From Erysipelotrichia bacterium (GTDB lineage Bacteria; Bacillota_I; Bacilli_A; Erysipelotrichales; Erysipelotrichaceae): a DNA stretch of 13,486 nt. A model generated the notes under the pieces. The model was given only the letters and a program-made list of their open reading frames with translations, had not been told where the DNA came from and searched no databases. Below, piece after piece: positions 1-13,486 of the stretch. Location: NCBI GenBank assembly GCA_009916335.1, contig SAAR01000062.1:1-13486 (forward strand), given 5' to 3'. A program made the translations under genes and the position numbers. Positions within the stretch are counted from its first letter, which is position 1. Every line of letters begins with the position of its first letter.

Positions 1-1424
1 TTATCAAGGTATACAAAACCTATATCTTTATCACTATTTTGAGCTTTAAAATACACTTCTCGCTTCTCCAATAGTCTCTCAACATGGCCATTTGCTATAT
101 AGATTTGGCTCATATTGTTGTCAGTGACACTTGGAAAATTTGCACATATGGTATTGGCTGTAAAAAGATAATTTTTAGAGACTTTTTTAGCAACATTTTG
201 AGCAAGCTCATACGCAACCGCATCGCCTACAATAACTGCTGTTTTACACTCGTTTTCGTCAATAATCCGTTGTAGAACTCCCGTTTGGTTTTGTTGATAA
301 TCAGGAAAATATTTAAACCATTTATCTAAAAAGAGTGTTACACTATTTTTATAGTGCTCTTGAATTGGCACAAGTAACTCTTTTTGATCTAAAAACCGTA
401 CATAAACCGCTCGCATGGCACTATCAACTTTGTAAAACTCTTTGACATAAAAATCGATACACTGATTTAATGACGAGAGCGGGTTGATAAGTGCTGTATT
501 AAACTCTAAAATCGTTTTTACATCTTCCCAAAAAGTTATATCCATGTGTATGGCTTGTTTATTATATGCTCTTTGGGTGATTTTCTTCAAGTGGTTTTGC
601 AAGATATCTTTATCTTGTAGATTACTCAGAAGAGCTTTAAGCCATTGTAAGTCTATCTCATAAAAGGGATGCGCGATATTGACTTTCCAGATATCTATAC
701 CCTCTGGAATTACATAATTTTTTAGGTAGCTATCTAAAGAGCTTTTGCATTCTCTAGAATCGACCCAATGCGTATATGCATTCATTAAAAGTTTGTTTGT
801 TTTATTATATAGAAGATTGTCAAAAACCGCCTTTGCTAGCTCATTAGCAAGTGTTACTGGTGACTTATCAAAATAGCCTTGCCCTATACACTCGTTCACT
901 TTGAGAAAAAACTGCTTTTTCGTACTCTCATTAAATGCACTAACATACATTTCAGGCTCATGTAAAAAGTGTAATAAATCTTTTTCAAGATCAAAAACAC
1001 CTCCCATCCCTGTTGCTAATTTTTTCCAGTAGTCTTCAGACTTGCCTATACTGACAAAAGCCGCTGATACAAGTTCTTCTTCACTCAAGGTAAGATTTAC
1101 ATGTAAAGACTGATACACTTTTTCTTTGATATAGTGATGAAGGTATTTTATTTCAATTGCACCATTTGTTTCGCAGTATTCTCGAATATATCGCAAATGC
1201 TCTTTTGGAATTTGAGTGTAAATAAGATATTTATTGCTATATTCTCCTTGCTTTTCTATCTCATACTTCACGCGAAGCTCATCAATTTCATTATGCACTT
1301 CATAAAGTATACAATCAAGGTTATTGAGCAAAAATTTTGCTTTTTTTGACTCATCGATAATAACAACAATCAGATGTTTTTCATAAATTGAGTCAAGCTC
1401 TTTTTTAAACCATTTATCGATCAT
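1..1424 (-). CDS. pglZ: PglZ, BREX alkaline-phosphatase-fold protein (N-terminal 474 codons, cut by window edge)
   Basis: This reading frame starts at ATG 1424-1422 and runs without a stop to the left edge of the window, so the 3' part of the gene is missing. About 474 codons are present; type 1 BREX PglZ proteins are usually around 800-900 residues. The first half is helical and poorly conserved. Near the end of the visible part are the segments that identify the family: AVIVGDAVAYE with Asp at residue 401, and FPSVTDNNMSQ with the P-S-x-T group at 431-434. These match the metal-binding and nucleophile-type motifs of the alkaline phosphatase fold in PglZ. PglZ is a core BREX component in the cytoplasm that works with PglX; its enzymatic role is still debated. 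The start overlaps the stop of the preceding gene by ATGA, and a good ribosome binding site (AAGGAAG) lies just upstream. Motif match plus position in a BREX operon make the call firm. Confidence 0.9.
   Translation of the reverse strand, partial: MIDKWFKKELDSIYEKHLIVVIIDESKKAKFLLNNLDCILYEVHNEIDELRVKYEIEKQGEYSNKYLIYTQIPKEHLRYIREYCETNGAIEIKYLHHYIKEKVYQSLHVNLTLSEEELVSAAFVSIGKSEDYWKKLATGMGGVFDLEKDLLHFLHEPEMYVSAFNESTKKQFFLKVNECIGQGYFDKSPVTLANELAKAVFDNLLYNKTNKLLMNAYTHWVDSRECKSSLDSYLKNYVIPEGIDIWKVNIAHPFYEIDLQWLKALLSNLQDKDILQNHLKKITQRAYNKQAIHMDITFWEDVKTILEFNTALINPLSSLNQCIDFYVKEFYKVDSAMRAVYVRFLDQKELLVPIQEHYKNSVTLFLDKWFKYFPDYQQNQTGVLQRIIDENECKTAVIVGDAVAYELAQNVAKKVSKNYLFTANTICANFPSVTDNNMSQIYIANGHVERLLEKREVYFKAQNSDKDIGFVYLD
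1096..1107. repeat. 12-bp palindrome TTTACATGTAAA, copy in pglZ
   Basis: A perfect inverted repeat found within the pglZ coding sequence, where it encodes part of LHVN. Identical copies occur at two places in pglX. Its meaning is unknown. Confidence 0.6.
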
Positions 1425-2956
1425 CGTTCTTCCTTTAATGCCATCTTGCCAAGAGCCGTAAGCTTGTATTTTTGTTTTGAACTTTGCGGCTTATCTGGAA
1501 TTGTAAGCGCAATCAGTCCATCACCAATGGCAGGATTTAAGTAGCCATCTCTAAAGTTTTTTCTATCTTTTAATCCCATTTTTTGCATGATCTCATCTCG
1601 TGACATCTCATCTTCTATACATTTGAGTAAGTTCAATACTTGGGGGGTAACTTGGGGGGTAACTTGGGGGGTGGAGACTTCTTTAGCATCTTTTTCTTTT
1701 TTCAACACTTCAGAATGTACGGGTAAGGTGACTTGAAAAAACGTATGCTCGGCATCAAAGGTAAATAAAGGCTTTGGTGAACCATTTTGAGCCATGGCAT
1801 CGATGATTTTCTTGATACCCGTTGATCTTCCCTCAGTCATCTTAAGGTCTTTAAAAAACTCTCCAATCCTTCTATTTCGGTATCTCCTAGAATTAACTCT
1901 TCCATTTTCAAAAGCTTCAAGTTGCACTGATCTATCTGGTCCTGGGTAGCTTAATATAAGCATCTCTTCTTGATATATTCTTATCTCTATAGGCTCTCTT
2001 TCCTCATACGATCGATGGTACACAGCATTGACTAAAGCCTCTTCGATGGCTGCAAATGGGTAGTTTTTTACCCTTGTAGCAATGGCTGTATCAGGATGCT
2101 TCATCACAGTTTCGATAATAAAATTTCTATCGATAAAATTAAGTGCTTCTTGCGTCATCTTGTGAATAGGGCCTTTAAACACCTTCTCGCTAAACTTATC
2201 GCCTCCAGCCCCTTCTTTACCAAACCATACGATGTCTATTTGCGTATAAGGAAAAAACTTCCACGGTTCTGGGTTAAACATCATCAGTCCAACATTGAGT
2301 GGGAAAAGTGCTTCTTTGGGACCATCAACAATATGCATCGCGCGACCAAGCTCTTCGATGGATAACGCATCGACCTCATTAGCAAGCGAGCTTTTGATCT
2401 CACTCAAAAATGCTTTAATCAACGTCTTATCAAGATCTTTCAGTGTTGCCTTTTGGTTATACCTATCATCAAAGGGAACGGTTGCTGTTAGGCTTAGAAG
2501 CTCACTTTCGTCCAAGCCTCTTGCCACAATAGAACTGGAGTTTTTTCTAATGTAGTATTTATACTCACTTCCTTTGCCCAATGTTGACTTCGCTTTATAA
2601 GGGCGTGTCATGCCTCCTGGTACCCAGATAACAAGAATCATCTTTGAATCAAATTCGACTGGAAATAAAATAGGATGATAACTAGGAATGATGGTATTAT
2701 GCCCAAGGGCTAAAAGCTCTTTTTGTATAGCATCAATTGAAGAAGGATTGACACCATACGGAGGCAATATAGGCTGACCATTGCTCTCTTCAATGCCAAC
2801 GATGATATATCCACCACCAAGATTGTGAAAGTCATTTGCAAAGGCGCAAATCGAATGCAGTATCTCTTCTGGATTCCAACCTCGTTTAAATTCTAGTCGC
2901 TCCCATTCTACGGTAGTGCCTTTTAGTAAGTCGTTTATGTTTATTGGTAGATTCAT
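1421..2956 (-). CDS. AlbA_2 (Schlafen-like) / GHKL ATP-binding protein with winged-helix tail
   Basis: This 511-residue protein has three visible parts. Residues about 15-150 are an AlbA_2 (Schlafen AlbA-like, formerly AAA_4) domain with EFKRG at 22-26 and the AFAND...GGGYIIVGIEE segment at 38-57. Residues about 295-420 carry a GHKL-type ATP-binding region of the RecG_C/HATPase_c_4 kind, with the N-box EEALVNAVYHRSY around Asn310. After a linker with three TPQV repeats (429-440) the last 70 residues look like a winged-helix DNA-binding domain. Proteins of this layout are often annotated as putative transcriptional regulators and occur inside restriction and BREX operons, where their role is not settled. 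It starts with ATGA overlapping the stop of the membrane protein gene and ends overlapping the pglZ start, so it is translationally coupled on both sides. Its GC content (about 35-43% in sampled lines) is closer to the BREX core than to the two genes upstream. Confidence 0.85.
   Translation of the reverse strand: MNLPININDLLKGTTVEWERLEFKRGWNPEEILHSICAFANDFHNLGGGYIIVGIEESNGQPILPPYGVNPSSIDAIQKELLALGHNTIIPSYHPILFPVEFDSKMILVIWVPGGMTRPYKAKSTLGKGSEYKYYIRKNSSSIVARGLDESELLSLTATVPFDDRYNQKATLKDLDKTLIKAFLSEIKSSLANEVDALSIEELGRAMHIVDGPKEALFPLNVGLMMFNPEPWKFFPYTQIDIVWFGKEGAGGDKFSEKVFKGPIHKMTQEALNFIDRNFIIETVMKHPDTAIATRVKNYPFAAIEEALVNAVYHRSYEEREPIEIRIYQEEMLILSYPGPDRSVQLEAFENGRVNSRRYRNRRIGEFFKDLKMTEGRSTGIKKIIDAMAQNGSPKPLFTFDAEHTFFQVTLPVHSEVLKKEKDAKEVSTPQVTPQVTPQVLNLLKCIEDEMSRDEIMQKMGLKDRKNFRDGYLNPAIGDGLIALTIPDKPQSSKQKYKLTALGKMALKEER
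1637..1672 (-). repeat. Three tandem 12-bp units encoding TPQV
   Basis: Three consecutive 12-bp units (plus strand AACTTGGGGGGT; the first unit has T instead of A at its first base) encode TPQVTPQVTPQV, residues 429-440 of the AlbA_2/GHKL protein. Each unit contains a run of six G (C in the coding strand). Unit gain or loss would keep the reading frame and only change linker length. TPQV-type repeats are familiar in linkers of this protein family. Confidence 0.9.
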
Positions 2957-4335
2957 GTAATCTTAACCCTCTTAATAACCTCTTCGATGATCTTGTTCAA
3001 ATCATCTTTATTTTTCTCAAAAAAATTTTTATCATCGTTTTGTGTTCTTTTATAGACTAGCTCTACAGGATTTTCAAGCAATCGTTTTAACGAAACAAAA
3101 ATTGTATGCTCTTTAATCTCTTTATCATCAAGGACAGATTTTTCTTTTAGATAGGTAAAATAAGTCATAAGTGATTGCGCTAAAATCGTTTTATAGTCAT
3201 ATTCTTCAAAGAGTTCTTTAGACTTTTTATAGGAAGCCCAAAAGAAGGATACAATGATAACAAATGGTACCATTGTCATGCTTTTAAAGAAAAATAGCAA
3301 AATTGGATCTATACTATTATTGATTATTACTGCTTCAACATTAAAAAATTTAGCAACAATATTGGACAAAAGCTGAGGAGCAAAAAACATCATATATCCA
3401 AAAATCATCATTAAAAGTCCAAAAGACAAAAATCCCACAAAATATCCCCAAAATTCACCTCTAGCCCTCTTTACTTTTTTCTGAAAGGAAGATGATAATG
3501 AGGAACTTGTCGCCCAATCCAATGTCTTTTTAGCCTCTTCTTGAATACTCTTCAAATCATCAATCAAAGATTTCTTCTCTTGTTGATACTCTTTACGATC
3601 ATTATCAAATAATTCACTTTTTTCATTAACAATCTCTTGAAGTTGCTTAAGATACTCATTCATATTATTTTGATTTTTTGCAATTTCTTCATCTTTAGCT
3701 GTTTGATACAATTCAAGTTCTTGCTCAAGGCTATTATGCTTAGCGTATAATTCATCAATTGCAGTTTTTTTTATTTCAAAGTCAGAAACAGATGCCAATA
3801 GTATATCTATTTCAATTTCATTGAGCGAATCAATTTTTTTTATTAGATTTTGCATTATCTCTATTTTATTATCAACAGCATCTTCATCGTATTGTGTTTT
3901 TAATTGTGTAAGAATCTCCTCAATCTCTTGTATTTGTCTTTCTCTTTGGGCAAATGAAGGCATCCTGCTATTTGATAAAAATTCAAAACCATATCTATCT
4001 AAAGATGTAACTAAAGTTTTAAAATGTGTAAAATAATTTTGAGCATATGTTGCATTATTTGAATCTGAAATAAAATTTACTGTATGACTAACAAGAGAAG
4101 CTAAATTTGAATTTATCTCCTGTAAAGAAAAAAATGAAAGTGTATCTATTTTCCCATTATCTCGAACAGCTTCCAATAATGAAAGTTTTGTCAATATAAT
4201 TAATAATTCATCTGAATTTGCATCAAAACTATAGCTTGGATTATACTGCTGATTTAAAAAAATATCTTTTATTTTTTCAATTTTTAAAGCATTTAAATTT
4301 TGAAAAATTGCTGTGATTAATTCTTGCTTTGTCAT
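2953..4335 (-). CDS. Coiled-coil protein with two C-terminal-half transmembrane helices, unknown function
   Basis: This 460-residue protein is not confidently assigned to a family. The N-terminal 125 residues are helical and soluble. Residues about 135-290 are rich in E, K, Q and L in a pattern typical of a long coiled coil. Two hydrophobic segments follow, about 298-319 (after GEFWG) and about 345-367 (ending VSFFWASYKKS), separated by a short loop. A charged helical tail of about 90 residues follows. There is no signal peptide, so the long N-terminal arm and tail are probably both cytoplasmic, with a hairpin in the inner membrane. The layout recalls uncharacterised membrane coiled-coil families such as DUF6161, but this is only a resemblance. 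It overlaps the upstream ATPase gene and the downstream AlbA_2 gene by ATGA. It shares the low GC of the ATPase (about 15-30% in sampled lines), which suggests the two travelled together. A membrane effector triggered by the ATPase is a hypothesis. Confidence 0.8.
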   Translation of the reverse strand: MTKQELITAIFQNLNALKIEKIKDIFLNQQYNPSYSFDANSDELLIILTKLSLLEAVRDNGKIDTLSFFSLQEINSNLASLVSHTVNFISDSNNATYAQNYFTHFKTLVTSLDRYGFEFLSNSRMPSFAQRERQIQEIEEILTQLKTQYDEDAVDNKIEIMQNLIKKIDSLNEIEIDILLASVSDFEIKKTAIDELYAKHNSLEQELELYQTAKDEEIAKNQNNMNEYLKQLQEIVNEKSELFDNDRKEYQQEKKSLIDDLKSIQEEAKKTLDWATSSSLSSSFQKKVKRARGEFWGYFVGFLSFGLLMMIFGYMMFFAPQLLSNIVAKFFNVEAVIINNSIDPILLFFFKSMTMVPFVIIVSFFWASYKKSKELFEEYDYKTILAQSLMTYFTYLKEKSVLDDKEIKEHTIFVSLKRLLENPVELVYKRTQNDDKNFFEKNKDDLNKIIEEVIKRVKIT

Positions 4336-6083
4336 TCAAAAACCTTTTTAATCATTGATTTAATTGTTAAATTTTCAAGCTTATTGATAAGTGGAGAGTT
4401 ATTTTCAATATAACTTTTAAGGTGAGCAACTTCGTTATAAATAACGCCCAAAAGATAATATATCTCTGGTATAGTGATCCCTTTATCGTCCGCAAAATCT
4501 AGTTTTTCTGGCGTACCATGTTTGGAAATAAATTCTATTTTTAAATCTGCTATGTTCAATTGGACAAAAATATTCTCTTCTATTTTTTTCCTCAAGGCGA
4601 CACATACAGAAAAAGGGCAATATGATTCATCTTGAATATATTTTGTAACTTCATCCATTATGAAATTATTAAAAACACTTACATCACCCCATGTTTCTTT
4701 CAATGATAATGCTCTAAATTTTTCTCTAATATTAATTGTTTGATCATGATAATGAAGAAAATATTTGGATATTTCTTCTTTAATTGTTATATCTTCTCTT
4801 TTTTCAATCAGTTTTCTCATATTTGCATCAGTAATAATCACACTTGTATTTAAAAAATAGACTTTTCTATTTTTTTCTGAAAATGCATAGCTCTGAAAAT
4901 AATATGGATTAAGATGTGTCAAGATAAGTGGATAAAACTTTTTGCCTTCTTCTTTCAGTTTATCAATAAACTGAGTTATATAATACTGAACTGCTATTAA
5001 GTTGGCATCGTCTAAATAATCGAATACTTCGTCTATAATCAATATGCAATTATTTTTAGAAAATTTATTTTTTGCTTGTTGTAGCAACGCTATAAAAGTT
5101 AAAACATCTCTTTGCCCATTTGAAATGTACTGAATCTTCGGTATTGACAAAATCAAACTACCATCTTTTTCTTGAGGCTTTACATCTTTCCAAGTAGCGT
5201 TAAAAAAACTAAAAATCTTTATATATCCTTCTTTCTCTAGTTCATATTTTTTGTATATACAAGTAGCTTTGAATTTAGGATTATCCTTTAAATATAAATT
5301 GCAAATCTGCAAAGCAATCAGATAACTATCAATTACATCAAAATTGAATGATTCATAACTTCCAACCAATTCAGCAATGTCAGAAAAATATTGTATGGAT
5401 CGCAATTCATCTAGTTTATTAGTTTCTATCCATGACTTAATTTCTTCACCAGTGCCCATCTGTAAATTTACTGCATTTTTAAATGATGTAATTTTTCTTT
5501 GAACAGTCTGATTTCCAGCTCTATCTAAAACAACATATTTTTCAGATAATTGACTCATAAATTTTTTGTCATTAAAAATAAAACCTACGTTAGGCAAGAT
5601 TTTACCATTAGAACCAAATTCATCTCGTTCACTAGTAACACTGTATTCTATATTGGCTCGTACGGGAATAGATTTAACTAGAGTTATCGGGGCAATTTCC
5701 ATTGAGGCAACTGCTCTTGAAGCGCCCCCTGGAAATTTCATAGTTTTTGCTTTTGGCTCAACCTTACTATTAATAACAAAAATATCAAAAGTACCGCTTA
5801 TTTGATTTGAATCTTTATCTGCTGTAAGTGTGTCCAAAGAACCATCTTCTTTTTTATACTCAATAGATAAAAATGGCTGATTTGATTCATTGTCTTGGTG
5901 GTAGTGATCTTTATCGAGTAACATTCTATTGGCATTCAAACAATTAAATGCTGCCGTTAATGAACTTTTCCCAAAACCATTTGGAGCAACTAAAATACTT
6001 GGTTTATTAGGAATAATGTCAAGTGAAAAACATCGTCGTTCGCCAAAACCTTTTACATTTTCGATACAAATAGTTTTAATCAT
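4332..6083 (-). CDS. ABC/SMC-like AAA ATPase (AAA_15/AAA_21 type), putative defence sensor
   Basis: This 583-residue protein has the full set of ABC-type ATPase motifs. Walker A is APNGFGKSS at 33-41 following an N-terminal ENVKGFG strand, the signature-like motif is SNGQRD at 321-326, Walker B is CILIIDE with Asp351-Glu352, the D-loop-like FDYLDD follows, and a switch histidine is in LTHLN at 390. The roughly 280 residues between Walker A and the signature lack a long coiled coil, so this is a compact sensor-type ATPase rather than an SMC or Rad50. The last 140 residues are helical, with RKKIEEN at 498-504 and YNEVAH ending at His554, vaguely like HEPN-type tails; there is no TOPRIM domain. 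Walker A has Ala at the first position where Gly is usual. The gene starts 3 bases after the pglX stop, and its ribosome binding site GGTAGGA includes that stop. Function is unassigned; similar ATPases act in PARIS, Septu and OLD-type systems. Confidence 0.85.
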   Translation of the reverse strand: MIKTICIENVKGFGERRCFSLDIIPNKPSILVAPNGFGKSSLTAAFNCLNANRMLLDKDHYHQDNESNQPFLSIEYKKEDGSLDTLTADKDSNQISGTFDIFVINSKVEPKAKTMKFPGGASRAVASMEIAPITLVKSIPVRANIEYSVTSERDEFGSNGKILPNVGFIFNDKKFMSQLSEKYVVLDRAGNQTVQRKITSFKNAVNLQMGTGEEIKSWIETNKLDELRSIQYFSDIAELVGSYESFNFDVIDSYLIALQICNLYLKDNPKFKATCIYKKYELEKEGYIKIFSFFNATWKDVKPQEKDGSLILSIPKIQYISNGQRDVLTFIALLQQAKNKFSKNNCILIIDEVFDYLDDANLIAVQYYITQFIDKLKEEGKKFYPLILTHLNPYYFQSYAFSEKNRKVYFLNTSVIITDANMRKLIEKREDITIKEEISKYFLHYHDQTINIREKFRALSLKETWGDVSVFNNFIMDEVTKYIQDESYCPFSVCVALRKKIEENIFVQLNIADLKIEFISKHGTPEKLDFADDKGITIPEIYYLLGVIYNEVAHLKSYIENNSPLINKLENLTIKSMIKKVFE

Positions 6084-6086
6084 TTC

Positions 6087-9000
6087 CTACCACTCCGCTG
6101 CCAGATACTTTTTCAACTGTCCAGCATTCAATACTTCATAGCTGATCATTTTTCTTTTTTGTAGTGGTGCTATGTTTTTACCTACGCCACTGTCTAGTTC
6201 TGGGTTGTAGCCCTCGGCTAGGAGGTCGTCAATTTTTGCTTTGTAGGTTTCTATCTCTCTGAGTTGTTTAAAAATGAGGTCTTTTTCATTTTGGGCTGAG
6301 GCGCTGTTGTCGTTGCTTAGGTCAAGTTGACGGTTTTGAAGGGCTCGTTCTCGATTTTCTATATAGACTGATTTTATCCTTAGTAGATTGTCTCTGCTCC
6401 ATTTATAGATGCTTATCAAGCATTCAAATCCTCGGTACTCACCACTGCTGAGATGCCAGATAAATGGAGTTTTTGGTAAATACATAAAAAGATTGAGGTG
6501 GTCACTCAGTTCTTTAAAAAAGTTATTGAGTAAATAACTCCCTAGCTCTTTTCCTAAAAGGACATCAAAACTGCTTGTTTGTGCATCGCTAAAGCCTTTT
6601 TGATAGAACTTTTCATGCACTCTTTGAAGCAGTATCTGCTCACCTGCATTTGGCACCAAAGGAACGATGCCATCTTCATCTTCAGCTAATATCTCGCGAA
6701 TCATATCGACTAAAAATTCTAGGGCTATGGTGTTCATGCGTTGTTTTGGGAGATTTTTGGACTCTTGGAACCAGTGCCAGACATTGATTGGATTGACCTC
6801 ATGTTTGATGCAAAACTCTTCTAGGTCATTGTTGGCTTGATAGAGGCTCTCAAACGCTTTGATGATCTCTGCTTTTTTATCAGCATCAAATGCTTTTACA
6901 TGTAAAGCGTTGATGTATGTTTGAGACAACGAGAGATCAAAGTTTTCTACAACATAGGACAGGTATGCTTCTTTGGCTTCAAGCTCTACATGTAAATCTC
7001 CCACGCTTTTCCCTTCTTTTTCTAGCACCATAGCTTTATCGCTCTCACTGAGTTCATAAACTTTAAAAATTTCTTCGTTGATGATGGCTTCATTGAGTAG
7101 CACTTCAGCTAAAAGATAATTTTCGTAGTTTAAGTACTCTAACAGGCGTTCTTTGAGGTTTGCATGAGCGCTTATGTAAAGTGGGTTTTGAGTGAAATTT
7201 GTCTCGGTAATGCTAAAAGAACAGAGATGCTTTTTGATTTCAATATTTATTTTGGCTAGGTTTGAGATGAGTTCTTCTTGTGGTTTTAGAGGTATTACGA
7301 AAGGGATTCGTTTCACATCCCCTATTTGTGTCTCCACTGTTGAATTTAGACATTCTAATATATAAAAAGATATTTTTGAATTTAAGACAGCAAGCGTATA
7401 ATCAAGATTGACTTTTTGCTTATTTAAATTATTAAAAATGCATGACCCTTTTTTATCAAAAATTTGATTTTGAGGCAGCTTGCGAAAGGATACGCCTTTT
7501 GAAGATGTTGCAGAATATGTAATACCTTCTGAAAAATAAAAAGCTTTGTTATCAGTAGTAGCTAACAATTTACCATTATTTGTAAAATTTACCAATAGCC
7601 AATTGTTTCCAAACCATTTATTATAGTCACCACCCTTTTGGTACGGAACCCAATTTCTTTTATCTAAAACATAGTCTTTGGATATATTATTTGATTGCAA
7701 TTCCCAATGGAATCGTAAAAATCTCAAATTATCACCTGTCATCAAACCTGTTGCAAGCTTCAAATAGTATTCAAAATTCTTAACTTTAAACTTCTCCCTA
7801 AACTCATCGCTAATCCAGTAGATAAATGGATAAGATTTGATGATTTTGAGTTTTTCTTGTGGCAATGTGTAATTGTGTTTATTTTCTTTACTCTCGCAGT
7901 AGTCACTATAGGCTTCTACAAAAACATCATATCTTTTCCCTTCATATATTTCATTGAGTTTAATGAATGATGAATCTTTTGTTTGCATATTTTTTTCAAG
8001 AACATACATCGCACTATCTACTCTTGCTGATGGATGAAACATACCCAAATAACCCCATTCAACAAAAAAGTCTATATGCGTTTTATCAAGCATGAAGGCT
8101 CGTACGTCTTCAAAAGTTTTGATGTACATGAAAGTTGGTGGATGCACTAAAGCCATTTTTCCATTCTTATTTGTCAATTCATGGCACCTCTTAATAAAAG
8201 TGGCATAAAGATTTGTATTGAACTTATAAGGCACTTTGTACTCTTTGTCGATAAACTCTTTGAGGTCTGCTCCAAAGTCACTGCTATCGGTGTATGGAGG
8301 ATTAGCAGTAGCAATATCATACTGCATTGTGATGATCTCTAAGAATTTCATAGCATCAGCTGTCTTAGTCGAGAGAAAACTATGATTTTCATCTTGAGCA
8401 TATTGTGCTACGGCAATTTTTAGATGATTGAAAAAACTTTTTTCAAAGGCTTTGTGCTCTTCTACGATGTGACTACTAAAGAGGTCTTTTGATTTGGTAT
8501 CGATAGCGTCTATTTTCATGCGTAGTTTTTCACCAATTTTGACCAAAGATCCAAACTTATAAGCTTGTTGCAAGTCTGCCCATATCTCTTCGACGAGCTT
8601 TTGTTGTGCTATCTCAAGCTTTGAGCCCTCAAAGATATGCTTTACTTCGCTGTAAGGTGGTAAAAAGAAGTCACTTGAAACGACTGAAAAAGAGAGATTT
8701 TGGATGGTTCTGCGTCTTTTTTTGGCTTTGATGTAGAGTCCAAGTTGTGCTATCTGGATGGCTCTATCATCAAGGTCAATGCCATGAAGATTGTTTTCGA
8801 TGATAAGCTTTGGTATCTCTTTTTTCTCGACATCAAGCCCATAATTGTCCATTTGATCTACGTAAAGTTCATAAAAAAGATCAAATGCATACAATAAGAA
8901 GTTACCACTTCCGCATGCTGGGTCGATAAGTTTTATCTCAGTGATAGGCTTAAGCTCTCTTGTGCGCTCTTTTGGGGCATTGGCTATTTTATATCTATCT

Positions 9001-9752
9001 TTGATGGTGGAGCTTGGATACATCTCAAGATACAGTTTGCCTAAAGCATTGTTGACTAAAAACTCGACTACCCATTTGGGTGTATAGACCTGAGATTGGA
9101 GAGAGACTTTGTCGTACTCTGTTTTATCACCACTGTCTTTAAATGCTTGTTTTTTAGAGGTATTGTAACTCTCATAGAGCCAGCCTAAAACATCATCACT
9201 CTGCCAAATATGGGTTTCTACTTGTGTATCTTTTTCTAGGGCATTAAACGCTGTGATGATTTCACCCAGTTCTATAACATGGGGTAAAAGTGCATAGGGG
9301 TGATTTTTGTGATAAAGTGGGAACTCTTCACCTAAGGTATTAAACGCGTGTTTGATGTATTCTCGTAAACCCTCTAACTCATGGGCACGCATAGAGGGAT
9401 TTTCTTCTAACCATGCTTTATGCCCGAAGGATCTGTCTCCATGAATGGCATCTTTGGTGATGATAGGTGGAAATAATTCGTGCGCTTCCATAACTTTAAT
9501 GGCAGCAATGCGGTTAAACAGTGTAAAAGTAAGTTCATCAAGCACTTTTTCTCTCGCATCTTTGTAAGAGCCCATCTCGCCTATGTGGTTTTGGATAATG
9601 AGATCTAGCTTGGCACGCTTTACATGTAAATCTTTAGAGATTTCATCTAGCTTGAGTTCCTTGGCAACACCAATACCAAGACCGGCAAATTGTTTGTCAA
9701 ATGCTTTTTCGATGAGTGTGCGTATAAAATTTACATGATCGGTGAGTTTCAT
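6087..9752 (-). CDS. pglX: PglX, BREX-1 adenine-specific DNA methyltransferase
   Basis: This 1221-residue protein is full length for type 1 BREX PglX (the E. coli protein is about 1,225). It methylates adenine in a short asymmetric DNA site, which marks host DNA, and it is also needed for phage exclusion. Visible motifs are SQVYTPKWVVEFLVNN before the catalytic domain, the SAM-binding motif I DPACGSGNFL beginning at Asp277, and the catalytic motif IV NPPY at 484-487 inside ATANPPYTDS. Residues about 580-850 correspond to the target-recognition region and are more AT-rich (about 23-30% GC in many lines) than the two ends of the gene (about 38%), which suggests exchange of the specificity region. 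The C-terminal 370 residues are helical, as usual for the family. The start ATG overlaps the stop of the PLD-like gene by ATGA, and AAGGAT upstream serves as ribosome binding site. No frameshift is seen, so no sign of phase-variable switching. Confidence 0.95.
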   Translation of the reverse strand: MKLTDHVNFIRTLIEKAFDKQFAGLGIGVAKELKLDEISKDLHVKRAKLDLIIQNHIGEMGSYKDAREKVLDELTFTLFNRIAAIKVMEAHELFPPIITKDAIHGDRSFGHKAWLEENPSMRAHELEGLREYIKHAFNTLGEEFPLYHKNHPYALLPHVIELGEIITAFNALEKDTQVETHIWQSDDVLGWLYESYNTSKKQAFKDSGDKTEYDKVSLQSQVYTPKWVVEFLVNNALGKLYLEMYPSSTIKDRYKIANAPKERTRELKPITEIKLIDPACGSGNFLLYAFDLFYELYVDQMDNYGLDVEKKEIPKLIIENNLHGIDLDDRAIQIAQLGLYIKAKKRRRTIQNLSFSVVSSDFFLPPYSEVKHIFEGSKLEIAQQKLVEEIWADLQQAYKFGSLVKIGEKLRMKIDAIDTKSKDLFSSHIVEEHKAFEKSFFNHLKIAVAQYAQDENHSFLSTKTADAMKFLEIITMQYDIATANPPYTDSSDFGADLKEFIDKEYKVPYKFNTNLYATFIKRCHELTNKNGKMALVHPPTFMYIKTFEDVRAFMLDKTHIDFFVEWGYLGMFHPSARVDSAMYVLEKNMQTKDSSFIKLNEIYEGKRYDVFVEAYSDYCESKENKHNYTLPQEKLKIIKSYPFIYWISDEFREKFKVKNFEYYLKLATGLMTGDNLRFLRFHWELQSNNISKDYVLDKRNWVPYQKGGDYNKWFGNNWLLVNFTNNGKLLATTDNKAFYFSEGITYSATSSKGVSFRKLPQNQIFDKKGSCIFNNLNKQKVNLDYTLAVLNSKISFYILECLNSTVETQIGDVKRIPFVIPLKPQEELISNLAKINIEIKKHLCSFSITETNFTQNPLYISAHANLKERLLEYLNYENYLLAEVLLNEAIINEEIFKVYELSESDKAMVLEKEGKSVGDLHVELEAKEAYLSYVVENFDLSLSQTYINALHVKAFDADKKAEIIKAFESLYQANNDLEEFCIKHEVNPINVWHWFQESKNLPKQRMNTIALEFLVDMIREILAEDEDGIVPLVPNAGEQILLQRVHEKFYQKGFSDAQTSSFDVLLGKELGSYLLNNFFKELSDHLNLFMYLPKTPFIWHLSSGEYRGFECLISIYKWSRDNLLRIKSVYIENRERALQNRQLDLSNDNSASAQNEKDLIFKQLREIETYKAKIDDLLAEGYNPELDSGVGKNIAPLQKRKMISYEVLNAGQLKKYLAAEW
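6895..6906. repeat. 12-bp palindrome TTTACATGTAAA, copy in distal pglX
   Basis: A perfect inverted repeat in the 3' half of pglX (encodes part of LHVK). A near copy, CTACATGTAA, is about 90 bases away at 6986-6995. Confidence 0.6.
9619..9630. repeat. 12-bp palindrome TTTACATGTAAA, copy in proximal pglX
   Basis: A perfect inverted repeat near the start of pglX, again reading as LHV on the coding strand. A shorter match, ACATGTAA, lies at 9888-9895 in the upstream gene. Confidence 0.6.
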
Positions 9753-10909
9753 TTCACTATATCCTTGGTTATAAGTTTCACATTTTGAAGTTCTACAATA
9801 AAATCTTTATCATCTATGAGCCGTTCAGATAAGTTTTTATAAATTACTTTTATGGTTATCTTATCATCAAAAGCTTTTCCAATTTCGACATGTAATCTCT
9901 CTTCAATCCATTGTTTTAAAGCTTCATCTGTATTGCCTATGAGGGTTTGGTATTTTAAAAAAGTCATTGGGGGATTTTTTTTGAGTGTTTTAAAAAGGTA
10001 GTTGCTTAAAGTTTTAACAGTCTTTGCTTGCTCTGCCTTTAAAACAACTTTCGCATTTTCATATAAATCATCTATTTTTTCTTGTACTTGAGCGACATTT
10101 GTATCAAACTTTTCTTGAAGATTTGTGCTAAGAATAGTTCCATAACCTTTTATGGAAACCAAATAATTCTTTCTTAACTCTTTCACTAATGTGTCTATTT
10201 GAGAAGTGTATTTTTCTATCTTTTTTTTGTCGCCGATAATGTGCGCTTTACTTTCTAAAATTTTTTTGAGTTCTTCTGATCTGTCTTTATCGGATATTAA
10301 CTCTTTTGGTATGGTAATTGTTCTATTTTTGATATTTATACCACGCACTTCTAGTTCAACAAAAACCATATTAAAGGATTGAATTTTTTTAAAAGATGCT
10401 TGTTGCTCAATAAGTATAGATTCACTTTTTGCTGCTTCAACATCTTCTTGAGTTAGAAGATTTTTTCCTATTTCAGGCTTTTCTTCTTCAGATACATTTG
10501 TTTGTACCATATGAGCCTCGATTAACTTCATGAGAGTTTGGGCTTCTTGGGCAGATGGTTTAAAAGCATTTGTGGCTACGCTGTTTATTTGAAGTGGAGA
10601 AAAAACAATCAGTACATCATCAACCATTAGAACACCCATGCCTAGATTGTCATCGCATCTTAGAACAACTCCTGCTGATAAAAGAAGTTGCAATGACTTT
10701 GCATGCTCTGATGTTCTATTGCCTAGAGTATCATTTTTTGACACGATAACATGAATATTTTTTATGTTACTAGCAAGAATAGCTTTTGTAACATTTTCAC
10801 CCAAAGATGGAATAGCCAGTACAATTTGCTTTTGCGCTGATTCTATAAAAGCAATAATTTCTTTTGCTCCTAGGCTTTTGAAATAGCTATTAAAAATGTT
10901 TTGATCCAT
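9749..10909 (-). CDS. PLD-like-fold protein with degenerate HKD motif, BREX-associated, unknown function
   Basis: This 386-residue protein sits between brxC and pglX, where a minimal type 1 BREX operon has no gene. Residues about 15-110 read like one half of a phospholipase D fold: an amphipathic helix, the strand QIVLAIPSL, a second strand HVIVS, a helix ending LLLSAGVVLR, then NLGMGVLMVDDVLIVFSPL. In active family members this last stretch carries H-x-K-x4-D and G-S. Here the positions are Gly90, Gly92 and Asp97, so the catalytic His and Lys are gone and nuclease activity is unlikely. Residues about 175-386 contain a beta segment (FVELEVRGINIKNRTITIP) and a helical, coiled-coil-prone region without a motif I recognise. 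The stop overlaps the pglX start. A structural or DNA/phage-sensing role in the BREX complex is inferred from location only. The start at ATG 10909 has only a weak ribosome binding site (GAAAG). Confidence 0.8.
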   Translation of the reverse strand: MDQNIFNSYFKSLGAKEIIAFIESAQKQIVLAIPSLGENVTKAILASNIKNIHVIVSKNDTLGNRTSEHAKSLQLLLSAGVVLRCDDNLGMGVLMVDDVLIVFSPLQINSVATNAFKPSAQEAQTLMKLIEAHMVQTNVSEEEKPEIGKNLLTQEDVEAAKSESILIEQQASFKKIQSFNMVFVELEVRGINIKNRTITIPKELISDKDRSEELKKILESKAHIIGDKKKIEKYTSQIDTLVKELRKNYLVSIKGYGTILSTNLQEKFDTNVAQVQEKIDDLYENAKVVLKAEQAKTVKTLSNYLFKTLKKNPPMTFLKYQTLIGNTDEALKQWIEERLHVEIGKAFDDKITIKVIYKNLSERLIDDKDFIVELQNVKLITKDIVK

Positions 10910-11009: not shown

Positions 11010-13486
11010 CTACTCCACCATAACTTCTATCTCATCATCATCACTCTGTCCTACTAATGCTCGCAATTGTTGAGAGAGAAGCTCTTTGTATTCTCGTATA
11101 CTTATCACTTTTTTAGGCATTTTGAATGCAATTTTTTTAAGCACTGGTATTGTTTGTGTTGGTGTCGATGGAGTTGTTTCCCCAATCACAGGTGCTGGTG
11201 TTGGCTTAGGTGCTTCTACTCGAATAAAATTGCCACTAAGAAAAAAAAGTTCACTCTCTTTTGTTGGGCCAAGATCAATGTAGTTAAGTACATCACAAAG
11301 TGAATAGCCGCATCGTTTACATGTAATATCAAAGTCTAAGTCTATATCCTCTGGTTTTACTATCTTGCTTTTGACATACTCTGTTATCACGCTGAGTTTG
11401 AACTGGTTATTTTTGTTTGGATCTTGTGGATAAGTGCTAAGTTCTTTGTGTGCAGATTCAACTTTGATCAAAAGAGATGCGTAAAGACTATTCATTGTTT
11501 CAATATTGTTTTTCAAAAGTTTAAAATACTCATCTTTAGCTTCTTGTGAGAGCGAGAGCAATGTGGTAACATTTTTAACAATATCTTCTTTGAAAAGCAT
11601 TTCAAATTTTTCTTTACAATCGCTAATTTTTACATTTGATTTATGGGCTTTTGAGAGCTCATTTTCCAATTGCACTAAAAAATCTCGGCGTTGCTTAATG
11701 GTTGAAAAATTATTTTTAATGAATCGTTGTGTTTTTAAAATATGCCCTATCGCTTGGGTAAATGCAACTTGGTGCTCAAGAAAATGCGTCACTTTATCGA
11801 TGTAATTGGCTTCTGTTGTTTTTGAAGTATATTCTTGTAAAATAGCCTTTTGCTCTAAAGTGGCGCTAAAAAGCTTATCAAAGTCTGCAACACTCTCTTT
11901 TAGGGTATTGATTGCAGCTAAAAAATAGTCACTTAGAATTTTAATGGCATCTGCTAGATCAAAATCACTGGAGTTATAGCCTACTTTTTTACTCGTATGC
12001 TCTTCGTAGTCTAACTCTTGAAGCGTTTGAACTAATTTTGTTTTTTGCGCAGCGCTAAGTGTTTCAGAGATAGACTTAAATGAGGCATTTCTAAACTTCG
12101 TTGTATTGATAAAAGCATCATGCGATGCTCTGTCTTGATGCGAAAAATAATCCGTTGCATTGAGCCTAACAACTAATCTTCCTGCACGAAATAGAACAGC
12201 TAGCGTTGTAGCAATTGTTCCAAAACCGTATCCCCATGGAGCGCCACTCAAATCTATCTCCAAAGATTTACCATCTGTATAGTTTCTGATTTTTGCAGAT
12301 ACCTCTTCAACGACTTTAAGGCTACCCCCGATAAAATTTCCATTGGTATCGAAAAATTTAAAATCATCTCCTTGAAAATTACGGTGAAGCTTGTCATTGG
12401 AATTTTCACTAAAAAGCCTTGGAATAATACTTTCCGATAAACTCGCACCTAATCGTCTGGTGTAGATATTTTTAACAAGTTTTTTTTGAATCTCATTAAT
12501 CGAAGATTTGAAACTTTCTTTGTTTAGTATGCTATCTTCATAGAGGTAAATCACCGTTCCTTCAAGACATGCCGTTTCTATGAGAGAGAGTAAGTATTTC
12601 TCTTTTTCTTCCTTCATGCTTGAAAATTCTCGAATGATCGTTGCGATATCTTTGTCACTATCTGTTGCATACTTTTCAATCATCGTAGAATAGCGTCTAA
12701 TTTCGCCAATGAGTTTATCTATCTCTTCAAATGTATTGTTTTGAGGAATAAGGGTAATGAGTTCTTTTGTGTGTTGTGTATGGCGCTTAGTCTCTTCAAT
12801 AAAATCTTCTCGTTTAGCCTGCATATTAAATGGGCTATAAACGCTTAGTCTTAGATTCTTGTTGGAAGATGTCTTAATGTCATCATCAGTATCTGTTAAA
12901 ATATTAAAATTGTATGAGGTGCCATCATCATTAACACTTGCAATCCCATTAAAAAAAGATAGTTTTTTAAGATAACTCGTGTAATCTCTCTTTTTTAAAT
13001 AAAGCTCGCTTGTATAATTATTCATCTCATCAAGTAGTCTACTCTCCAAATCAGAAGTGATTTTGTAAGTATTGTTAGAGTACAAAAGCACTTTGGCATC
13101 GACTAAAATAGTAAGAGCTTCTTCAATGAGTGGTTTTAGAGTGTAATAGGAGTTTAAATCGGACATATAGCCTTTGGTAATATTCTCAAGTGTTGCCAAA
13201 GCCAGATCCGCTGAATTGTTTAAAAAATGGATGGTTTTCATTAAGTTAACGCCATCAATGGTTGATTTGTCTTGAAGTATTTTTTTAGCAGTGTCGTATT
13301 TCAAACCCAGTGCTGTAGGTGGATTCATTTGCGCTTCATTACATAAGTCATAAAATGTTGAAAAGTTATAAAGCTCTTTATTTTTAAGATGCTTTTTGAG
13401 TACATTAAAGGTTGTAAAAATAACACCGCGCGCTGCAATTTGAGAAGCAACAAGCGCATTAGAGTTAAAAAGAAATTTTTGCAATA
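11010..13486 (-). CDS. brxC: BrxC, BREX P-loop ATPase (C-terminal ~825 residues, cut by window edge)
   Basis: The frame is open to the right edge of the window; the first possible start (TTG at 13484-13482) is not a believable start, because BrxC proteins are about 1,200 residues and the N-terminal P-loop domain lies outside. About 825 residues are present. The segment DLSGAPWGYGFGTIATTLAVLFRAGRL (written here as its ends: DLSGAPWGYG and AVLFRAGRLVVR, near residues 415-445 of the visible part) is characteristic of BrxC. Much of the rest is helical and coiled-coil prone. Near the end are three cysteines in C-x2-C-x4-C (722, 725 and 730 of the visible part), then a Pro/Thr-rich linker and an acidic tail. 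BrxC is a large cytoplasmic ATPase that is essential for BREX defence and is thought to act as the assembly and DNA-associated motor with BrxB, PglX and PglZ. The gene ends 100 bases before the next start. Confidence 0.9.
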   Translation of the reverse strand, partial: LQKFLFNSNALVASQIAARGVIFTTFNVLKKHLKNKELYNFSTFYDLCNEAQMNPPTALGLKYDTAKKILQDKSTIDGVNLMKTIHFLNNSADLALATLENITKGYMSDLNSYYTLKPLIEEALTILVDAKVLLYSNNTYKITSDLESRLLDEMNNYTSELYLKKRDYTSYLKKLSFFNGIASVNDDGTSYNFNILTDTDDDIKTSSNKNLRLSVYSPFNMQAKREDFIEETKRHTQHTKELITLIPQNNTFEEIDKLIGEIRRYSTMIEKYATDSDKDIATIIREFSSMKEEKEKYLLSLIETACLEGTVIYLYEDSILNKESFKSSINEIQKKLVKNIYTRRLGASLSESIIPRLFSENSNDKLHRNFQGDDFKFFDTNGNFIGGSLKVVEEVSAKIRNYTDGKSLEIDLSGAPWGYGFGTIATTLAVLFRAGRLVVRLNATDYFSHQDRASHDAFINTTKFRNASFKSISETLSAAQKTKLVQTLQELDYEEHTSKKVGYNSSDFDLADAIKILSDYFLAAINTLKESVADFDKLFSATLEQKAILQEYTSKTTEANYIDKVTHFLEHQVAFTQAIGHILKTQRFIKNNFSTIKQRRDFLVQLENELSKAHKSNVKISDCKEKFEMLFKEDIVKNVTTLLSLSQEAKDEYFKLLKNNIETMNSLYASLLIKVESAHKELSTYPQDPNKNNQFKLSVITEYVKSKIVKPEDIDLDFDITCKRCGYSLCDVLNYIDLGPTKESELFFLSGNFIRVEAPKPTPAPVIGETTPSTPTQTIPVLKKIAFKMPKKVISIREYKELLSQQLRALVGQSDDDEIEVMVE
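11317..11326. repeat. 10-bp palindrome TTACATGTAA, copy in brxC
   Basis: A 10-bp core copy of the same palindrome (flanked TTTACATGTAAT), located in the brxC codons for the C-x2-C segment. Here it is read in a different frame (ITCK), so the sequence is not kept only for an LHV peptide. Confidence 0.55.

Follow-up and report, generated by a model that had tools for sequence, protein, structure and literature searches.

What do the genes inserted between pglX and pglZ in a BREX (bacteriophage exclusion) locus contribute, and which of them would be the effector? The locus considered here comes from an Erysipelotrichia bacterium, and the window (the whole stretch of DNA that was analysed) is 13,486 nt long, covering positions 1-13,486 of contig SAAR01000062.1 in assembly GCA_009916335.1. 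An initial annotation had described the insert as a two-gene defence module, in which an ABC-type (ATP-binding cassette) ATPase senses infection and a membrane coiled-coil protein acts as its effector. Both genes are real, at 4332-6083 and 2953-4335 on the minus strand, but the insert consists of three genes, and the one of Schlafen type at 1421-2956 had been missed. The reading that we favour, and hold tentatively, is that the ATPase is a restriction-linked back-up for BREX with a probable nuclease domain of its own, and that the membrane protein is an accessory. The insert is laid out as follows:

4332..6083, minus strand: restriction-linked ABC ATPase, 583 aa, with an SMC_N match below cut-off and invariant ABC motifs
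4332..4811, minus strand: ATPase C-terminus (roughly residues 425-583), with a putative nuclease site (invariant R498, E502, K527 and H554)
2953..4335, minus strand: two-transmembrane coiled-coil protein, 460 aa, of a small orphan family (hydrophobic segments; 12 relatives)
1421..2956, minus strand: Schlafen-type protein, 511 aa, with AlbA_2, HATPase_c_4 and winged helix-turn-helix (wHTH) parts (Pfam matches)

The ATPase is a member of a large ABC-ATPase family that has no name; a phmmer search that scored 7998 candidates returned at least 2234 proteins at E<=0.001. The general models that fit it best are SMC_N (E=9.7e-7, 28.9 bits vs a Pfam cut-off of 40) and RecF, both below cut-off. The initial call of an ABC-type ATPase is borne out by the Walker A lysine (K39), the signature SNGQRD around G323, the Walker B pair D351-E352 and H390, each found in 200/200 aligned members; the alignment holds the 200 of 207 family sequences that are 540-700 residues long. 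The closest ATPases are 91-51% identical to that of the window, and the closest one that bears an organism name, from a Sulfurimonas metagenome-assembled genome, is 74% identical. The family has members on plasmids (3 records) and on viral contigs (4). Phage records gave no match at E<=1e-3. In samples of Campylobacterota-phylum genomes the ATPase is rare (1/397, in the L033 genome, 0/24 and 1/151). The best matches of the ATPase and the membrane protein among PDB sequences, at E values of 0.18 and 0.018, were to unrelated molecules.

To place the family in its genomic setting we compared 86 loci, made up of the best 80 of 99 genome relatives, 3 plasmid, 4 viral-contig and 1 further locus, less 2 near-copies. 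Restriction-modification (R-M) genes were sought with profiles grown from 1-2 seeds each. Matches to HsdM, HsdS and HsdR fall off steeply with distance from the ATPase. The flanks within 2.5 kb of it (395 kb in all) hold 32 of them, and the number drops to 16 at 2.5-5 kb (350 kb), 4 at 5-7.5 kb (327 kb) and 1 at 7.5-10 kb (309 kb). Per 100 kb that makes 8.1 matches in the innermost bin vs 0.32 in the outermost, a difference of about 25-fold. Pfam matches for 97 of the 112 close neighbours gave Methylase_S (10), N6_Mtase (6), Eco57I (6) and HSDR_N (4). In 21/86 loci the ATPase has a type I R-M or related methyltransferase gene no more than 3 kb away. This count is too low, because a type III system (L128) falls outside it, as does L076, where a type IIG-like methyltransferase lies about 3.5 kb from the ATPase and a restriction-enzyme-like gene adjoins it.

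Two type I R-M loci hold further neighbours of the ATPase. At L064 the gene directly after the ATPase, which it overlaps by 4 bases, matches the UG5-nitrilase reverse-transcriptase defence model (11758-14135), and at L134 a P-loop protein of 471 aa, judged by eye to be KAP-like, is encoded between hsdS and the ATPase (1979-3394).

The family is present in three BREX loci, that of the window included. On a contig from a viral collection (L131) pglZ and brxL (1869-6265) are preceded by a type IV-like gene, which PADLOC labels Orf5/HEC-06, and followed by another restriction-like gene (PADLOC PDC-S02/mREase_IV), after which comes the ATPase. On a Halomonas contig (L023) the end of pglX is followed by ThsB, pglZ, brxL, small open reading frames (ORFs), a 567-aa gene and the ATPase. 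Here ThsB (TIR; 1054-2025) occupies the pglX-pglZ interval, and the ATPase family member comes after brxL. A quick maximum-likelihood tree of 95 rows placed the window, L131 and L023 apart, and its starred branches force three changes. The exact place of L131 is unsure because the tree program flagged long branches near it.

Several features of the C-terminal region suggest that it is probably a nuclease domain in its own right. R498, E502, K527 and H554 are found in 200/200 aligned members and T524 in 199/200, and because of the four invariant residues the ATPase may be its own effector. R-x3-E is found in 200/200, and the spacing from the glutamate to the histidine is x51 in 168 members, x50 in 17, x52 in 14 and x53 in 1. 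All but one of the members (199/200) therefore lie inside the published range of the PrrC/RloC triad, Arg-X3-Glu-X36-52-His, in which alanine at any of the three positions abolished RloC activity (PMC2610378, in part). This published triad is the basis of the proposal that the ATPase carries an RNase site. An asparagine four residues before the histidine (N550) is present in 196/200 ATPase members, in 10/20 RloC-like proteins and in 4/4 PrrC-like proteins, the latter two sets being named by Pfam AAA_13, size and motif alone. The ATPase also seems able to act alone, because 19/85 loci have no same-strand ORF of at least 70 aa within 250 bp of it (contig ends included).

A mechanism that would fit these observations is as follows. 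The gene order, the link to restriction, the occurrence in three BREX loci and the invariance of the residues are observed, and we infer every biochemical step. The pglX-pglZ slot would hold a three-gene back-up cargo whose core is an ATPase of a family that repeatedly settles in restriction loci. While BREX is working, an ATPase dimer would be kept inactive, either through its nucleotide state or because BREX proteins contact it. Once BREX is blocked or overwhelmed by a phage, the heads would rearrange as ATP is bound or hydrolysed, and the C-terminal region would be exposed. In that region R498, E502, K527 and H554 would make up an RNase site that needs no metal and that may cut tRNA, as PrrC and RloC do. 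Cleavage of RNA would halt translation and so stop the phage. The membrane coiled-coil protein would be an accessory particular to this lineage, serving to anchor or tune the ATPase, and the Schlafen-type protein a further back-up effector.

A number of results weigh against this reading. In hhalign comparisons the C-terminal region of the ATPase matched the C-termini of the RloC-like and PrrC-like proteins with a probability below 1%, whereas the positive control, PrrC-like vs RloC-like, gave 76-90%. The arginine of Rx4-6H, the motif of the HEPN superfamily (PMC3710099, in part, which also describes ABC-HEPN proteins in R-M operons), is absent at positions -5, -6 and -7 of H554 in 200/200 aligned members, and no HEPN domain is among the 25 listed Pfam families (of 31 matched) in the 55 ATPase members scanned. 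Also, R-x3-E-x36-52-H occurs in the last 160 residues of 48/428 unrelated ORFs, and together with N-x3-H in 7/428; since the bare motif is so common, the evidential weight lies in the invariance of the residues and not in the motif. The motif was chosen after the alignment had been viewed, and a shuffle estimate of 0.002 is subject to that choice. As to the genomic setting, the seeds for HsdM, HsdS and HsdR were drawn from L064 and L074, both within the 86 loci, and 65/86 loci have no R-M gene of the searched types within 3 kb. The link between the ATPase and restriction is therefore strong, but not universal. Strict membership of the PrrC/RloC or HEPN families was rejected, there being no profile match, no Rx4-6H arginine and no HEPN match in Pfam. 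That the ATPase works like a PrrC is our leading guess; that it is a PrrC is not supported.

All genes of the window are on the minus strand, in the order brxC, a 386-aa gene, pglX, ATPase, membrane protein, Schlafen and pglZ, and those around the insert are these:

11010..13484, minus strand: brxC (PADLOC BrxC PDLC02493, E=4.6e-229, 762 bits), which leaves the window at its 5' end
9749..10909, minus strand: 386-aa gene between brxC and pglX, with a weakly PLD-like N-terminus
6087..9752, minus strand: pglX methyltransferase (PADLOC PglX PDLC02519, 1451 bits; NCBIfam BREX_1_MTaseX, 565 bits, cut-off 500)
3..1424, minus strand: pglZ (PADLOC PglZ PDLC02545, E=1.1e-114, 383 bits), which leaves the window at its 3' end

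BrxC, PglX and PglZ occur together, as expected of a BREX (type 1-like) host, and the assignment of the locus to BREX thus holds; the window showed no brxA, brxB or brxL. The run from the 386-aa gene through pglZ is tightly coupled. Overlaps of 4 bases join the 386-aa gene to pglX, the ATPase gene to the membrane gene (the ATGA noted initially), the membrane gene to the Schlafen gene and the Schlafen gene to pglZ, and pglX is separated from the ATPase gene by 3 bases; the spacing between brxC and the 386-aa gene is 100 bases. Since the whole run is so closely packed, the ATGA overlap is nothing special to the ATPase and membrane genes. The window's BrxC model matched 4/397 Campylobacterota-phylum genomes at E<=1e-30 (rare in that sample), and a plasmid search with BrxC gave no match. 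PglX relatives were found on 115 plasmid records, every one below 60% identity. The 386-aa protein gave PLDc_2 at E=0.02, below cut-off, and no PADLOC match; a relative with 22% identity lies at L076 (1435-2700), directly before the type IIG-like methyltransferase.

In the model of the initial annotation the ATPase does no more than sense, and the membrane coiled-coil protein, once released or activated by it, damages the membrane. This model draws on that 4-base overlap, on a shared low GC content, as if the two genes had been acquired together, and on the graded identities of the membrane protein's relatives (90-58%), which resemble those of the closest ATPases. The GC content (third-position GC in brackets) is 0.291 (0.202) for the ATPase gene and 0.277 (0.208) for the membrane gene, whereas the Schlafen gene has 0.399 and pglX 0.369. 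However, the 386-aa gene near brxC has similar values, 0.314 (0.222), so composition is weak evidence of joint acquisition. A relative of the membrane protein was found in 0/86 other ATPase loci, L131 and L023 included (two profiles, E<=0.1, ORFs of at least 100 aa within the available flanks), and the ATPase has invariant C-terminal residues of its own. We regard the sensor-effector pair as rather doubtful.

The membrane protein itself has the two hydrophobic segments that had been described, beginning near residues 294 and 342, whereas its coiled-coil character was judged from the look of the sequence alone. Among the candidates scored it has 12 relatives: an initial search gave nine, including a 317-aa piece, and a second added three, all of them pieces. 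Conservation peaks at residues 361-420, after the second hydrophobic segment, and this conserved tail is predicted to be cytosolic because of the basic residues at the ends of the segments. The C-terminal half (the two segments and the tail) resembles proteins of 401-472 aa, 18-24% identical, in four Campylobacterota-phylum genomes. Matches in that phylum were found in 5/397 genomes, all distant, and in 1/153, one of the same five. Plasmids yielded no match at E<=0.01, and none of 375 pattern stretches in IMG/VR was confirmed.

Distant two-helix relatives lie outside BREX at L120 (8190-9434), L119 (176-1381), L121 (10036-11253) and L122 (8073-9491). In the stretches read around these four no other window protein was matched, the ATPase included. 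A conserved ATPase-membrane pair was accordingly rejected for the loci read (the 86 and L119-L122), a set that does not extend to the contigs of the close metagenomic relatives. Matches to bDLD2 (1/10 relatives, E=3.9e-4) and LMBR1 (2/10, best E=2.3e-4) are below the cut-offs where these are shown, and were set aside because they fall in helical stretches and the window's own membrane protein lacks them. The membrane protein could anchor, restrain or aid the ATPase, or could be an effector; the best reading is that it is a rare accessory.

The third gene of the insert may offer another partner. Its product carries SLFN_AlbA_2 (E=1.5e-14), HATPase_c_4 (E=1.3e-12) and a Fic-like_C winged helix (E=4.2e-25), that is, the AlbA_2, minimal histidine kinase ATPase and wHTH of the Schlafen-HATPase-wHTH companions of BREX. 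Relatives occur on 5 plasmid records. A Schlafen gene lies within about 1.4 kb of the ATPase in 3/86 loci, all type I R-M. At L074 the ATPase gene comes after hsdS and overlaps by 4 bases the next gene, whose Schlafen-type product shares 56% identity over 508 residues with that of the window. The order at L038 is hsdS, ATPase, a 97-aa gene, Schlafen and hsdR, and at L043 it is hsdS (849-1805), ATPase, other ORFs, Schlafen (4952-6601) and hsdR (6748-9987). A Schlafen gene is also present at L076, 8.6 kb from the ATPase. These arrangements give the Schlafen gene a tie to the ATPase that is recurrent, though still uncommon. They favour a working pair in which the ATPase is the sensor and the AlbA_2 Schlafen protein the effector, with the membrane protein as a spacer or anchor, as does a published count of at least 1017 taxa in which Schlafen-HATPase-wHTH proteins neighbour BREX and related systems (PMC12839542, in part). 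Since the close arrangement is confined to three of the 86 ATPase loci, we consider such a pair unlikely.

A passenger or housekeeping role, in which a RecF/SMC-like ATPase serves DNA repair or BREX assembly with no toxic effector, would agree with the sub-cut-off SMC_N and RecF matches and with the many loci lacking a searched R-M gene within 3 kb, but is made quite improbable by the steep distance gradient of the restriction linkage and by the plasmid and viral-contig members.

The preferred reading, a restriction-linked ATPase with its own nuclease domain, can be carried further. The ATPase may found a restriction-linked family of suicide nucleases, more than 2000 sequences strong, with an R-E-K-H site unrelated to HEPN; BREX would have recruited it at least three times, and the membrane protein would tie the nuclease to the inner membrane in this lineage. 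We put this forward as a possibility, somewhat on the doubtful side. With four invariant residues named, mutating them would test whether the ATPase is its own effector.

How does the insert compare with what is known of this interval? As the initial annotation had held, the pglX-pglZ slot accepts second-line systems (PMC11341690, in part). According to the same source, about 9000 genomes carry pglZ and pglX together, and about 7000 of these have intervening genes; about 5000 of the filled intervals contain no known defence system, and the remaining 2000 or so include BrxU (15.98%) and PARIS homologues (2.21%). The locus supplies a candidate family for the intervals without a known system, one that is widespread outside BREX too. 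No report of the ATPase family in BREX was found in the literature searched, a body of texts that stopped short of supplements and of the 2020 ABC-ATPase classification, and PMC10853773, in the part covered, has nothing on the family. A catalogue of BREX back-up effectors includes OLD-type ABC ATPases with nucleases, and the words PrrC, RloC and anticodon are absent from its main text (PMC12839542, in part).

PrrC and RloC resemble the ATPase in their N-terminal ABC head (Walker A, signature, Walker B and His switch), in a C-terminal Arg-x3-Glu...His of the published spacing, in the N-x3-H of many members and in their residence in restriction loci. They differ in that the C-terminal region of the ATPase has no detectable profile similarity to theirs and that the Rx4-6H arginine is missing from it throughout. 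Further differences are that the window's ATPase has no zinc-hook-like CXXC (CXXC occurs anywhere in 9/200 members) and that Pfam AAA_13 matched 1/55 ATPase members, at E=1.5e-4.

PARIS (the ABC ATPase AriA with the TOPRIM protein AriB) occupies the same pglZ-pglX interval in other BREX loci and embodies the same general notion, an ABC ATPase as a back-up (PMC11341690 and PMC12839542, in part), but no conserved partner gene was seen for the window's ATPase. Membership of PARIS was rejected: the AriA model gave E=0.0058, with no stretch passing alone, and no TOPRIM match was seen in the 7 window proteins. The BREX-linked Schlafen-HATPase-wHTH proteins have the same domain order as the insert's third gene (PMC12839542, in part); a difference is that in the window this gene comes after those for an ABC ATPase and a membrane protein within a single operon. 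BrxU, a GmrSD type IV enzyme (PMC11341690, in part), and the ThsB of the Halomonas contig occupy the same pglX-pglZ interval and belong to different protein families.

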